Of a stretch of 64,000 nucleotides of DNA, positions 375 through 5,732 are shown one piece after another; position 1 is the first letter of the stretch, and each line of letters opens with the position of its first letter. The position numbers and the translations under genes were made by a program. Below the pieces are notes generated by a model. That model was given only the letters and a program-made list of their open reading frames with translations. It did no database searches and had not been told where the DNA came from. The DNA comes from Bdellovibrio bacteriovorus (GTDB lineage Bacteria > Bdellovibrionota > Bdellovibrionia > Bdellovibrionales > Bdellovibrionaceae). The stretch covers positions 1,935,184 to 1,999,183 of the forward strand of contig NZ_LUKE01000001.1 in assembly GCF_001592735.1 (NCBI RefSeq). Reading direction: 5' to 3'.

Positions 375-1424
375 ATGATCGATAATCAGTTCGTGCCAAA
401 GTCTAGCGAAGTTTCAGGATCAATAGCCGGGGAATCCAATACCACCGCCGAGTCCAGAGGACGTATCTATTTTGATACCCTGCAAGCTCTTGCGGAGTTC
501 GATGCTGAAGCACAACAAGAAGATATCGTAATATCTGAAGATCCTCGCGTGGCTACCTATCAACGTAATGCCCAAGTTTTGATGAAGCATAAGGAATATC
601 CTTTAGCACTTAATCTGTTAAGACAGGCTAGTAATATCGACTCTAAAAACCCTGTCACATTGGGTTTGCTGGTGGTGGCTCTTGAAAGTTCGCAACGAAT
701 TGATGAGGCTCTTTTGGTTTCTAGAGCGCTTTCAAAAATCGATTATGGCTTTGAAAGTATGTGTAAATACGCAACGACCTTATACAAATTAGGTAAGGAT
801 CAAGAGGCTTTGGATAAATATTACGAAGCTTTGGCGGTGCTGACCCAGGAAAATTCTTTGTTATTTGAAGTGTATAAGAACATGGGGAATATTTTCGTCA
901 GACAGGGCGATTTTGACGGGGCGGAAGAGTACTATAATAAGGCCTACACCTTAAACCCAGAGTCCGACATTTTGTTAGTTAACCTAGGAACGCTTGAAGT
1001 TCAGCGCAATGACTTTGATAAATCCGTTTATTGCTTCCGTCGCGCAATTGAAATCAATGCCGATAACGACAAGGCTTGGGTCGGATTGGCAATGGTTCAT
1101 AACCACATCGGTGATGCGGAATTAGCGTGGGCCAATATCGAAAGAGCCTTAGATATTAATCCCAAAAATCGCACTGCGGTTCACTTAGCCTCTAACTGGG
1201 GAGTGCGTGATCAGCAACCGGGCCGGGCCATCGAAGCCCTGCAAAACTATCTTTCGTCCGTTGAACAAGATGAAGACATGTCTTTGGTTTTGATCAATTT
1301 GTTCTGTATGCAGGGCCAATTTAACGAAGCTTTGATGGAAATCGAAAGAGTTCTTTTATGGAACCCTTCGCACCAAGAGGTTCGAGAGTTGAAACGTAAA
1401 CTTCAAGGTTCGAAGGCGGCTTAA
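375..1424 (+). CDS. TPR-repeat protein, first gene of a glycosylation-like operon
   Basis: This 349-residue protein has no signal peptide. Tandem tetratricopeptide repeats run from about residue 55 to the C-terminus; the clearest are near 165-195 (GNIFVRQGDFDGAEEYYNKA), 200-232 and 233-266, each ending in a Leu/Ile-x-Pro/Ala turn. The first 45 residues are Ser/Thr/Glu rich and probably disordered. TPRs serve as protein-binding scaffolds. The gene lies 1 nt before the MptE-like gene and ahead of two GT9 glycosyltransferases, so it may present a protein acceptor such as flagellin; that role is inferred. TAGGAG lies about 10 nt before ATG 375. Confidence 0.85.
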   Translation: MIDNQFVPKSSEVSGSIAGESNTTAESRGRIYFDTLQALAEFDAEAQQEDIVISEDPRVATYQRNAQVLMKHKEYPLALNLLRQASNIDSKNPVTLGLLVVALESSQRIDEALLVSRALSKIDYGFESMCKYATTLYKLGKDQEALDKYYEALAVLTQENSLLFEVYKNMGNIFVRQGDFDGAEEYYNKAYTLNPESDILLVNLGTLEVQRNDFDKSVYCFRRAIEINADNDKAWVGLAMVHNHIGDAELAWANIERALDINPKNRTAVHLASNWGVRDQQPGRAIEALQNYLSSVEQDEDMSLVLINLFCMQGQFNEALMEIERVLLWNPSHQEVRELKRKLQGSKAA

Positions 1425-1425
1425 G

Positions 1426-2037
1426 ATGTCAGCAATTACATTTTCAGAAAATCATGAAGGCAGCCTGATTTCTTTTGAGGCGGGTGAACCCCTGGTTTCT
1501 TTGCGTGATCCCCAAGGCGAAGGCTTGAAATGGGCTTATTCATTAGGAGCGATGCCGACCAAACACGTAGTGGTCGTGGGGTTGGGCTCGGGGTTTCATG
1601 TGGCGGCACTGGCCGACGTGGATCCGAACTTAACTATCACGGTGATTGAAAATCGTGATGCCCTGTTAAGAGTTTTCTGGTCGCAATTTCCGGAATTGGA
1701 AAATCGCGTGGAAGTGATTAGTTTGCAAAATGCCCAAGATATTTTCAAAACGGCGTTTTTTACCGAAGTGGTGGCAGAAGCGCCATACATTTTGTCATTT
1801 GTTGATTGCTGGGGCCAGCAATCGGCGTTCTTCACCGAAGTTTTTGCGCACCTTAGCGGCCGCTCTTTAGAGTCGATCAAATATCACTTTGAAGAATTTG
1901 GGATCAATATCAAAGCAGCTTTTTTAAAAAACAAAGATCTTATGTCTTTGAAAGATGTTTTCCCGGCGATTGAGAGTTCCGAGGTTGCCGAGAGTAAAAA
2001 GGAAATTTTTCGGGTTCTTAATGAACTGGTGAAGTAA
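1426..2037 (+). CDS. MptE-like/Maf-related Rossmann protein
   Basis: This 203-residue protein carries a nucleotide-binding Rossmann motif at about residues 48-65 (VVVVGLGSGFHVAALADV), followed by an acidic strand end (TVIE). This resembles the glycine loop of the DUF115/MptE-like domain in motility accessory factors (Maf), which take part in flagellin modification with nonulosonic acids. It also resembles SAM methyltransferase motif I, so the activity is unresolved. It is shorter than full Maf proteins and has no clear C-terminal transferase region. Its stop overlaps the next start by 1 nt, suggesting translational coupling to the GT9 gene. Confidence 0.6.
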   Translation: MSAITFSENHEGSLISFEAGEPLVSLRDPQGEGLKWAYSLGAMPTKHVVVVGLGSGFHVAALADVDPNLTITVIENRDALLRVFWSQFPELENRVEVISLQNAQDIFKTAFFTEVVAEAPYILSFVDCWGQQSAFFTEVFAHLSGRSLESIKYHFEEFGINIKAAFLKNKDLMSLKDVFPAIESSEVAESKKEIFRVLNELVK

Positions 2038-3578
2038 TGAAAATCTTAGTGGTTTCTCTTTTACGTCTGGGTGACGTGATTCAACAAGCCGCGCTTTTTA
2101 GGGGTCTGCGACAGCAAAATCCGGACGCGGAAATTCATTTGTTGATCAATCAACAGTTTTCGCATGTCGATGAGGTTTTGCCGGGCATCGTGGATAAGTA
2201 TATCTATTTTGATCGCGAAGCTTTGCAAAAAGGGATTGGGGAGCCTGCTTACAATATCCTTTGGCCTTATCGTCAGCTGGAAGGCCTTATCAATCAGCTG
2301 AATGCGGAAGACTATGATGTCGCCTATAACTTTACGCACACCAAGCTCAGTGGTTATCTGTTGGGGGCGACCGAGATTAAAAACGTCAAAGGCTTGATGC
2401 ACACGGAAGGACGCTTCCAAGGTCTTTCGAATAAGTGGTTGCGCTATTTCAACGATCGTTTTTCGGTCGAAGGAAAATCCCTTTTTCATTACGTCGAGCT
2501 GTTGGGACGTTCTTTTGATATTCCGGTCACGAAAACGCCCAGTACTATTTCGAACAAATCCAAAAACAAACTGGTTTTATTTCAGTGCCTGACAAGCAAG
2601 GCAGCGAAAAACTGGAATCTTGAATATTTCCAGGTTTTAAAAAACATGATTGAAACATCCTTGGTCGATCATAAGGTTCGCATCTTAGGCGCGTCTTTTG
2701 AAAAAGAAGATCTTTTGAAGTTCTTTGCGGAAGAAGATCTTTTGATCTGCAATCTTTCTGATGCCAAAGAATATCTTTCCGAAGCAGCTCTTCTAGTAAC
2801 GGGGGATACCAGTATTAAGCACTTGGCGGCCCAAGCGGGGACTCCCATTGTTGAGCTGGCTATTGGGCCCAGTGATCCAATTAAGACCGGAGCCTTTTCA
2901 GCCAATTCGTTGGTGTTGCAAGGGGATGATTTAAAACCCGAAAAAGTATTTGAAGCGGTTTGGGATCAATTAAGCCTGGCGCCTCTTAAAATGCCATCGT
3001 TCAGTCATTTGATGGAAAGAGCGGTGTGGAGTCTGCACCTTGACGGGGATACTTCGGCGTTGGCCTATGAACATCGGGTGCGCGAAATTCGCCAGCAGCT
3101 GCCCGCTGAAGAGATTAATAAAAGTCTAAAGGCTTGGAACCAGACGTCAGAAAAATTTGCTACTTGGATGAAGCAAGCCAAAAAAGCACTGCCCTCAAAA
3201 GAGGAGATTTCGCAAAAGCGACAATTTCATTCCGCCGATATCGCGGATCTTATTTTGATTGCCCAGGATATTTTAAAATCGAAAATGGACGCGGCGGGGT
3301 ATTTCCAAGATTTTATCGAAGCGCTTTTGTCGCGTTTTGCTCAGCCGATCCAGATTCATGACCGTATTACGAAAGCGCTTACGGAAATTGAAGCGCTCTT
3401 AGAAGTGCGCACCCAATTGACTCAAGTCTTACAAATTCCGTCCATGGAAGGACAATATTATGCAAAAGGAATTGGAAAATTACCTGTCGATGGCTTTGCT
3501 GAAACTGGAAAAGGTTCAAAGCCAATTGCAGAAGACTCAAAACTACAACCAAGAGACAGAGAAACTACAGCTACTTAA
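2037..3578 (+). CDS. GT9 family (heptosyltransferase-like) glycosyltransferase
   Basis: The 513-residue protein begins MKILVVSLLRLGDVIQ, the classical GT9/ADP-heptose transferase N-terminus. The family's nucleotide-sugar-domain motif is near residues 255-275 (VTGDTSIKHLAAQAGTP). The transferase core spans about 1-320. An extra helical region (about 330-470) is not part of the usual fold, and the last 40 residues look low in structure. That tail overlaps another coding frame (3460-3633). Because the neighbours are TPR and Maf-like genes rather than LPS core genes, a protein-glycosylation role is as likely as an LPS one; this is inference. Confidence 0.8.
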   Translation: MKILVVSLLRLGDVIQQAALFRGLRQQNPDAEIHLLINQQFSHVDEVLPGIVDKYIYFDREALQKGIGEPAYNILWPYRQLEGLINQLNAEDYDVAYNFTHTKLSGYLLGATEIKNVKGLMHTEGRFQGLSNKWLRYFNDRFSVEGKSLFHYVELLGRSFDIPVTKTPSTISNKSKNKLVLFQCLTSKAAKNWNLEYFQVLKNMIETSLVDHKVRILGASFEKEDLLKFFAEEDLLICNLSDAKEYLSEAALLVTGDTSIKHLAAQAGTPIVELAIGPSDPIKTGAFSANSLVLQGDDLKPEKVFEAVWDQLSLAPLKMPSFSHLMERAVWSLHLDGDTSALAYEHRVREIRQQLPAEEINKSLKAWNQTSEKFATWMKQAKKALPSKEEISQKRQFHSADIADLILIAQDILKSKMDAAGYFQDFIEALLSRFAQPIQIHDRITKALTEIEALLEVRTQLTQVLQIPSMEGQYYAKGIGKLPVDGFAETGKGSKPIAEDSKLQPRDRETTAT

Positions 3579-3633
3579 AGAACTTGTGAAGGAACAGCTG
3601 AAAAATGAAAATTCTGGTCACACAACTCGCTAG
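3460..3633 (+). CDS. Small coiled-coil protein nested out of frame between two GT9 genes
   Basis: A 57-codon frame starts at ATG 3460 with GGAAGGA 7 nt upstream, overlaps the last 119 nt of the preceding GT9 gene, and stops at TAG 3631-3633 inside the next GT9 gene. The product is a continuous Leu/Gln/Lys/Glu-rich amphipathic helix (KLEKVQSQLQKTQ, then LQLLKELVKEQLK), typical of a coiled coil. By contrast the overlapping GT9 tail reads as low-complexity, non-family sequence. The good ribosome site and ordered heptads argue for real translation. A frameshift that fuses this helix to the GT9 protein in relatives is the main alternative. Confidence 0.6.
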   Translation: MQKELENYLSMALLKLEKVQSQLQKTQNYNQETEKLQLLKELVKEQLKNENSGHTTR

Positions 3634-5062
3634 GTTAGGCGATATTTACATGACGTGGCCGGTGTTACGGGCTGTTCGTCGTACATATCCAGATGCAGAA
3701 ATCCATTTGTTAACGCGCCCTCGTTTTGAAGGCGCGGTCGAAGGGCTTAAGATCATTGATCGTCATTGGAGCTTGTCATCAAGTACGATCTTATCCCCGT
3801 TGGTGCAAGCCGAAGCGGATATTGATACGTCATTGGCAAGATTAGATCATTTTGTTTCTGAACTTTCAGAGCAGAATTTTGACTGGATCATCAATCTTAC
3901 TTTTTCGCCGGTTTCAAGTTACCTGACACACGCGATCAGCGGTTTGCACACTCGCGTTTCGGGCTACAGTCGTTATAACGATGGAACTTTATGTCTTAGT
4001 GATGAAGTCAGTGGCTATTTTTATTCACAGGTGGGAACGAACAAAGCCAATCGTGTCCACTTAAGTGACATCTTTGCTTCCATGCTGGAGCTTGAATACG
4101 TCGAATCAGATTGGGCGGCCCCTGAAATTCAGGAGTGCGCTTTTGCTTTACCCGAACGCTACATCATAATTCATGTCGGGGCCAGTGAAGCCCACAAGTC
4201 ATTAACCCCCAAGCAGTGGATTCAGGTGTTGCAAACCCTGGGGCAAAGGGGACAAAGTATTCCGATTGTTTTAATTGGAGCCCCCAATGAAAGTGTTTTG
4301 TCACAAGAGATAATAAAGGGTTTAACCGGTTCCCACGTCGTAGATCTGGTCGGTAAAACCAAAGTGTCTGATCTTTTTGCGATCTTGCAAAAGGCTGATT
4401 TGCTGGTGGGCTGCGACAGTGCGCCGATCCACATGGCCTCCTTGACGGACACGCCGACTTTAAACATCAGTGTTGGCAACGTGAATTTTTGGGAGACAGG
4501 CCCGAAAGCGTCTTTAGGATTTATTTATCGTGCCGAAACCGCGGCGTCCTTAAACGGGCCCGAGCTGGGGGCGGTGTTAGCTGATCTTTTAGACGGAAAC
4601 ATCACCGACGGCCTTATCGTGCGTTCTGCGGGTTTAGTGAGTTATCAAAAATCAGAAACCGCTTCTGAAAGATTTCAATGGGACTTAGTGCAAGCCTTAT
4701 ATCTAGGTGGAAATTATCCCGTGGCCGATCGAATTGAGATCATCCAAGGGGCTTATCAATTGCAAGAGATCAATACCTTCGCCATGGAACAGATCAAAAC
4801 TGTGCCGACCAAGGGATTGGAATTAATTGGTCCCTTGCTCGATCGTGCAGAAGAAGTTATTCAAAATATTAGCCAATGGGTTCCCGAGCTGAGTCCTTTA
4901 ATAAGCTGGTACCAAGCGGAAAAGATCCGTATAGGTCCTGGCTCCTTAGAGGAGATTTGTACCGCAGCTTTGAATGTACATGAAAGAATGGCACGCCATC
5001 TTCAGCCGTATATTCCTCATGAGGCAACAACCGAAAATGGGGTGGGCGATGGAACGCTATAA
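3605..5062 (+). CDS. Second GT9 family glycosyltransferase
   Basis: This 485-residue paralogue of the upstream GT9 protein starts MKILVTQLARLGDIYMTWP. It has the acceptor-domain fold and the conserved motif near residues 265-285 (LLVGCDSAPIHMASLTDTP). The transferase part occupies about 1-330. A helical C-terminal extension of about 150 residues is again present, paralleling the first enzyme. Neither ends in a membrane segment. It overlaps the small coiled-coil ORF at its 5' end and the next gene by 14 nt. The paired enzymes with matching extensions may form a dedicated glycosylation complex; substrate and acceptor cannot be read from sequence. Confidence 0.8.
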   Translation: MKILVTQLARLGDIYMTWPVLRAVRRTYPDAEIHLLTRPRFEGAVEGLKIIDRHWSLSSSTILSPLVQAEADIDTSLARLDHFVSELSEQNFDWIINLTFSPVSSYLTHAISGLHTRVSGYSRYNDGTLCLSDEVSGYFYSQVGTNKANRVHLSDIFASMLELEYVESDWAAPEIQECAFALPERYIIIHVGASEAHKSLTPKQWIQVLQTLGQRGQSIPIVLIGAPNESVLSQEIIKGLTGSHVVDLVGKTKVSDLFAILQKADLLVGCDSAPIHMASLTDTPTLNISVGNVNFWETGPKASLGFIYRAETAASLNGPELGAVLADLLDGNITDGLIVRSAGLVSYQKSETASERFQWDLVQALYLGGNYPVADRIEIIQGAYQLQEINTFAMEQIKTVPTKGLELIGPLLDRAEEVIQNISQWVPELSPLISWYQAEKIRIGPGSLEEICTAALNVHERMARHLQPYIPHEATTENGVGDGTL

Positions 5063-5732
5063 AGTCTCGGGAGATGAGTTACGCAATTTCTATAAGGATA
5101 ATATCGCGCTGGAAGAAGTCTTTAGCGATATTGAGATGGATCTGATGACCAATAATCAGGTGGTCTGCCGTTATATCATCAATGGCCTGGAAATTTCGGA
5201 AGCCGACGAAGCGAAGTTTTCAACCGTCACTTTGGATCAAGTTCAGACTTTGGAATACCTCACAGAAAATAGCCGTGACCTGACGGGTCTAGTTTTACGA
5301 GGCTGGATTGAAGCGATGCCGGAGCTTATGCAGGCCACGGAAAACCTAGCTCGTCGTATGAGAGCACAAGGTCTTAAAGGATTGCTAAAATCTATTCATG
5401 AATTGGTACAAAACTGTGAGTATTTGATTGATAGCACCATCTCGATTAAAGCGACGATGGGGGATCAGTTTTTGGGGGCACATCCGCTAAATTGGGCCGC
5501 AACCGAAGAACACAGCAAAAAAACTGTGACAGAGGCATTACGCGCTTTGGAAAATAAGGATTTTATTCTTTTAGCGGATGTCCTAGAGTATGATTTAAAC
5601 CATACGCTCCAAATGTGGACGGAGCATTTAAAATCGCTAGAGAAGGCGCTAAACGGTGAGCAATCAGGATCTAATAACAAATCCGAGCAAGCTGGATCCC
5701 ATCCTATGGGTCGGAAACGCGTCGCCAATTAG
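5049..5732 (+). CDS. Hypothetical helical protein of the glycosylation operon
   Basis: I place the start at ATG 5049 (MERYKVSGDELRN) because the 25 codons further upstream lie inside the GT9 gene and look like shadow sequence. GGGGTGGG precedes it as a weak ribosome site. The 227-residue product is soluble and mainly helical, acidic in its first third, and ends in a Ser/Asn/Lys-rich tail. I do not recognise a family. Its last 77 nt also encode the start of the histidine kinase in another frame, so translation of the two is probably coupled. Position suggests a link between the glycosylation genes and the two-component pair. Confidence 0.7.
   Translation: MERYKVSGDELRNFYKDNIALEEVFSDIEMDLMTNNQVVCRYIINGLEISEADEAKFSTVTLDQVQTLEYLTENSRDLTGLVLRGWIEAMPELMQATENLARRMRAQGLKGLLKSIHELVQNCEYLIDSTISIKATMGDQFLGAHPLNWAATEEHSKKTVTEALRALENKDFILLADVLEYDLNHTLQMWTEHLKSLEKALNGEQSGSNNKSEQAGSHPMGRKRVAN

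Follow-up and report, generated by a model that had tools for sequence, protein, structure and literature searches.

The flagellar operon of Bdellovibrio bacteriovorus carries, between the genes for two GT9-family glycosyltransferases (GT9#1 and GT9#2), a short out-of-frame ORF that is almost certainly a real protein-coding gene. This small gene is ancestral to the order Bdellovibrionales, its open frame is conserved, and the frame is under purifying selection. Judged from the compared sequences, the C-terminal tail of GT9#1 that runs across it is a nearly unconstrained passenger, and the long overlap of the two genes very probably arose through losses of the GT9#1 stop codon, whereupon GT9#1 was read on into its neighbor. 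The features discussed below are listed in Table 1; their coordinates refer to the analyzed stretch of 64,000 nucleotides, here called the window.

Table 1. Features of the small gene and its operon in the window.
Feature	Position	Strand	Basis
TPR protein, upstream operon member	375..1424	+	Pfam TPR families
p203, 203-aa Rossmann-like protein	1426..2037	+	Kept in most loci
GT9#1, GT9-family glycosyltransferase with helical C-terminal domain	2037..3578	+	Pfam Glyco_transf_9, E=1.2e-11
Shine-Dalgarno-like GGAAGGA	3446..3452	+	7 nt 5' of the ATG; sequence
Small gene, 57 codons, predicted two-helix hairpin protein	3460..3633	+	ORF, homologues, omega-like ratio, AF2
GT9#1 C-terminal tail (aa 475-513) running out of frame across the small gene	3460..3578	+	Omega-like ratio 1.07; pLDDT <50 from aa 479
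Conserved small-gene core (codons 1-48), which closes shortly past the motif L-x-E-L/I-V/I-K/R-E-Q	3460..3603	+	Invariant residues, short homologues
Small-gene codons 49-57 (C-terminal), imposed by the GT9#2 start	3604..3633	+	Omega-like ratio 3.06 vs 0.11; G063 tail
GT9#2, GT9-family glycosyltransferase consistently co-occurring with the small gene	3605..5062	+	Pfam Glyco_transf_9, E=5.2e-16; 99/141 genomes
p252, conserved operon member	5049..5732	+	Listed ORF 4974-5732

The initial annotation had described a 57-codon frame preceded by GGAAGGA and overlapping GT9#1 by 119 nt and GT9#2 by 29 nt; all of these details are exact in the sequence, and the frame runs from an ATG to a TAG codon. Most genomes of the genus have a GGAAGG-type motif at this same distance from the small-gene ATG. 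Nested overlaps of such a length had also been called unusual, but the length of the ORF by itself is unremarkable: ten same-strand ATG ORFs of 57-199 amino acids lie mostly within longer ORFs in the window, and 17 do so when both strands are counted. Since nested ORFs of comparable size are common by chance, we dropped ORF length as evidence for a gene. What sets the small ORF apart from chance is its conservation. When 49 candidate ORFs of 40-200 amino acids from the first 10.4 kb of the window were compared with 15 related loci, only the small ORF, a partial FliT-like gene, and the genes for the response regulator, RsmD and CoaD recurred at full length in 13-14 of the 15 loci; each of the remaining candidates did so in at most seven.

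Selection on the overlapping frames was analyzed in a gapless alignment of 21 genomes of the genus with a parsimony-based omega-like ratio. Between relative positions -145 and -60, inside the GT9#1 overlap, 77 of the 141 changes fell at third codon positions of the small ORF, which are first positions of GT9#1 and account for 28 of the 86 sites (P=6e-8). Downstream of this region, the proportion was 91 of 139 (P=3e-14). The omega-like ratio of the small frame was 0.20 where this frame stands alone and 0.31 inside the GT9#1 overlap, whereas that of the GT9#1 frame in the overlap was near neutral. Thus, when constraint is compared in both frames of the aligned locus, it is the small frame that is constrained. 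Relatives that fail to conserve the frame, stop codons inside it, or constraint confined to the GT9 frame would each have spoken against a gene; we looked for all three and found none of them. Over the first 47 nt of the overlap, 5 of 26 changes that are synonymous in the small frame are also synonymous in the GT9#1 frame, compared to 1.3 expected (P=0.009), a weak signal that some extra constraint may act on the GT9#1 frame there.

With regard to GT9#1 itself, its best Foldseek matches are WaaC/WaaF/GT9 proteins, and its AlphaFold model is ordered to about residue 470. The predicted onset of disorder roughly coincides with the start of the small gene at GT9#1 codon 475, which is supportive and not decisive, since few homologues cover the tail. 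The stop codon of GT9#1 shifts in position between relatives, and the small frame remains open. In most other genera, the two genes overlap by 4-50 nt, and in most of the genus by 89 nt; an overlap of at least 89 nt is present in 22 genomes, all of one genus. The longest overlaps are those of the window (119 nt), of G005 and G019 (122 nt each), and of G004 (170 nt). Since the window genome groups apart from the G005/G019 pair on the tree (G004 is outside it), the GT9#1 stop codon was probably lost more than once. The tail is near-neutral, predicted to be disordered, and variable in its end, and we therefore regard the small gene as the old partner and the GT9#1 tail as the newcomer; the same three properties bear out the earlier impression that this tail looks foreign to the GT9 family. 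In G004 (L053:1308-1526), which has the longest overlap, the hairpin loop of the small protein is enlarged by 16 inserted residues. As a separate observation, nearly all GT9#1 relatives in alignment A5 possess an insertion of the form CxPC-HS-x2-C-x(5-6)-C at a site corresponding to about 2919-2940 of the window (residues 295-301), and the GT9#1 protein of the window is wholly without it.

Among 66 sequences of the small protein, M1, E45, and Q46 are invariant, and the homologous frame stops soon after the KEQ residues in G046, L163, L168, and L169. The codons that follow the conserved core have a different character. In the overlap with GT9#2, the omega-like ratio of the small frame is 3.06, compared to 0.11 for the GT9#2 frame. 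In G063, where GT9#2 resides on another contig, the flagellar operon keeps the small-gene core, followed by an unrelated tail sequence. Because the GT9#2 frame is constrained at codons 49-57, and because the tail changed once GT9#2 had moved, we attribute the sequence of these codons to GT9#2. A C-terminal NENS..TR motif had been considered as functional and was ruled out on the same grounds. Structure predictions, for which we used alignments A4 and A5 built from related loci, yielded an AF2 model with helices at residues 3-26 and 31-50 (mean pLDDT 86). Hence, of the clean amphipathic helix proposed initially, the helical character is upheld; instead of a single helix, the product is predicted to fold into a hairpin of two antiparallel helices, about 50 residues long. 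Searches of Pfam, NCBIfam, and PDB sequences with the small protein gave no credible match, no similarity to FliT, FlgN, or FliS was detected either for it or for the 20 members of alignment A1, and we found no solved structure related to it. A Foldseek search with the predicted hairpin returned no significant match (best E about 4); helical hairpins are a generic fold.

A profile of the small protein matched 88 of the 141 genomes of the order and two further genomes from another order of the same class, with no matches elsewhere in a 369-genome sample of the phylum. Across the order, the gene holds one operon slot. GT9#2 is present in 99 of the 141 genomes, and all 88 genomes with the small gene are among these; in other words, the small gene occurs in 88/99 genomes with GT9#2 versus 0/42 without it, the co-occurrence to be expected of an accessory subunit of a GT9 enzyme. 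Since it is also absent from 24 genomes that possess FliD and lack GT9#2, its occurrence is tied to GT9#2 and not to the flagellum as such. As to the 11 genomes with GT9#2 and no profile match, in four (G037, G047, G052, and G056) the slot is occupied by a divergent ORF, the GT9#2 match of G106 is only partial, G015 has a fused GT9#1/GT9#2 locus, and the last five (G090-G094) were left uninspected. We judge the locus of G015 to be L148 (B. bacteriovorus strain kdesi), in which truncated GT9#1 (741 nt) and GT9#2 (876 nt) genes adjoin each other and the small gene is missing; this arrangement looks like a deletion that joined the two paralogues, although an assembly error may also account for it. 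Two other observations were made in this survey. A contig titled as a Streptomyces griseus MAG (L141) bears a Bdellovibrionales flagellar operon, and its record is probably mislabelled. In loci L186-L193 from Nitrospirales (L190 excepted), GT9 genes related to GT9#2 adjoin flagellin, FliD, and FliS genes, some of them together with a large TPR gene, and no small gene was detected in these loci.

The genes of the operon are arranged in the order two flagellins, FlaG, FliD, FliS, FliT-like, TPR, p203, GT9#1, small gene, GT9#2, p252, histidine kinase, and response regulator, and this order of the flagellar operon is kept over many genera. The small gene is thus linked to the genes for flagellin, FliD, and FliS, as a member of a flagellin glycosylation operon should be. 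The FliT-like member is a separate gene of 141 amino acids further upstream; among the loci of the order whose sequence extends far enough upstream, nearly all contain the TPR gene. A Pfam search gave no match for p252. The arrangement varies in a few loci. Seven of them, from several genera (L156, L160, L165, L166, L172, L181, and L183), have the small gene but lack GT9#1 in front of it: the small gene directly follows the TPR gene in L156, L166, L181, and L183, and in L160, L165, and L172 the place of GT9#1 is taken by an unrelated gene about 160 codons long. We did not find GT9#1 elsewhere in the genomes G033 or G058. In G063, the operon is split between two contigs, one of which carries the part from FliD to the small gene and the other GT9#2, p252, and the histidine kinase, RsmD, and CoaD genes (loci L222 and L155, with L155 matched to G063 via contig coordinates); the GT9#2 block adjoins purine-biosynthesis-like genes. 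Farther upstream, beyond the window, visual inspection pointed to a REP-associated transposase-like ORF between the two flagellin genes (L092:5052-5807). In the literature on HD100 locus tags near fliD and fliS (bd0611 and bd0612, respectively; PMC9140294) and on small proteins of Bdellovibrio, we found no mention of the small gene.

From this gene context, we infer that the products of the FliD-FliS-FliT-like-TPR-p203-GT9#1-small-GT9#2 segment form a cytoplasmic module for the modification of flagellin. Given this operon composition, we tentatively propose that the small protein may serve as an accessory subunit of the glycosylation module, in conjunction with GT9#2 and/or the TPR protein. 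The TPR protein would bind flagellin in the cytoplasm and present it, the GT9 enzymes would attach sugar to it ahead of export, and the hairpin would bind GT9#2 and/or the TPR protein, such that the complex is assembled or positioned. Because the small gene of G063 is not located beside GT9#2, the TPR protein or a different operon member is an alternative candidate for its partner. Taking the gene model, the origin of the overlap by stop-codon loss, and the accessory role together, we lean slightly toward this combined picture. We consider a more far-reaching version unlikely, in which the small protein, specific to the order, is indispensable as the third subunit of a new TPR-GT9 complex for flagellin glycosylation and, in addition, both frames of the 89-122-nt overlap are functional in the genus; if true, this dual-functional same-strand overlap would belong to the small number of long co-directional overlaps kept by selection.

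Other explanations of the ORF have to be weighed against this proposal. An ORF arisen by chance, or one read as a continuation of GT9#1 after a +1 frameshift to give a GT9#1-small fusion, could draw on the frequency of comparable nested ORFs and on the offset of the two frames by one. However, the frame is kept in 88 genomes with its own Shine-Dalgarno motif and ATG, and in many genera GT9#1 ends in a 4-nt ATGA overlap at the start of the small gene, or the operon has no GT9#1 at all; a chance origin is thereby refuted, and this pair of readings retains practically no probability. The ORF overlaps the GT9#2 start by 29 or 38 nt or by an ATGA in nearly all genomes, as would suit a translational coupler or leader that opens or feeds this start while its peptide is inert. 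We regard this as highly improbable, since selection acts at the level of the amino acids, specific residues are conserved, and in G063 the gene persists even though GT9#2 is on another contig and the overlap is gone. Coupling to GT9#2 may nevertheless be an added effect of the ORF.

The position of the small gene between two GT9 genes, in the window and in most loci, had suggested an adaptor that could pair the two enzymes. Such a protein should be present only together with both of them, but the seven loci without GT9#1 keep the small gene beside GT9#2, the genomes G033 and G058 have no GT9#1 elsewhere, and G063 has retained the small gene in its flagellar operon despite the departure of GT9#2. 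This reading is consequently improbable and is disfavored as the ancestral role. Somewhat less remote, although still unlikely, is a small protein akin to flagellar export chaperones that binds helices of flagellin or FliD independently of the glycosyltransferases. A helical hairpin of about 50 residues encoded in a FliD-FliS-FliT-like operon would fit this function, but the gene is absent in the 24 FliD-containing genomes without GT9#2, and the protein resembles neither FliT, FlgN, nor FliS.

With the accessory role in flagellin modification as our working proposal, parts of its mechanism have precedents, which we take as analogies and not as proof. In the Maf/FliS systems (PMC4065374), flagellin is known to be glycosylated first and only then to be bound by its chaperone and exported; unlike there, the candidate enzyme here is a GT9 and not a Maf protein, and p203 has no significant match in Pfam or NCBIfam. 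The heptosyltransferase TibC (PMC4358343) glycosylates a protein, as do the autotransporter heptosyltransferases of the TibC/AAH type generally, and the iron finger of TibC resembles the four-cysteine CxPC..C..C insertion of the GT9#1 relatives. In contrast to these systems, no autotransporter is involved here, and the GT9#1 protein of the window lacks the cysteines; the part of the TibC report at hand describes no small partner protein. Comparable in its modules is FlmG of Caulobacter (PMC7591256), in which a TPR domain that binds flagellin and a GT-B domain are joined in one protein, and whose type of modification is cytoplasmic and possible before export. Unlike in FlmG, the TPR and GT9 proteins are separate here, an extra small helical protein is present, and the modification of flagellin is a prediction from gene context. 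The flagellar operon of these predatory bacteria gains a small protein without a known family, and its gene offers a direct genetic test of flagellin modification in Bdellovibrio.

The overlap has its own counterparts. As in the long co-directional overlaps that arise via stop loss of the upstream gene (PMC2478687, category iii; PMC3887535), the 3' end of GT9#1 has been extended over its neighbor, and the old frame of the small gene can be told apart from the newcomer frame of the GT9#1 tail. Among 715 cases examined in one survey, no co-directional overlap longer than 60 bp was real (PMC2478687), and overlaps of this class are usually dismissed as annotation errors. Here, in contrast, an overlap of at least 89 nt is found in 22 genomes, with a downstream gene that is under selection; a long same-strand overlap can thus conceal a real conserved gene.
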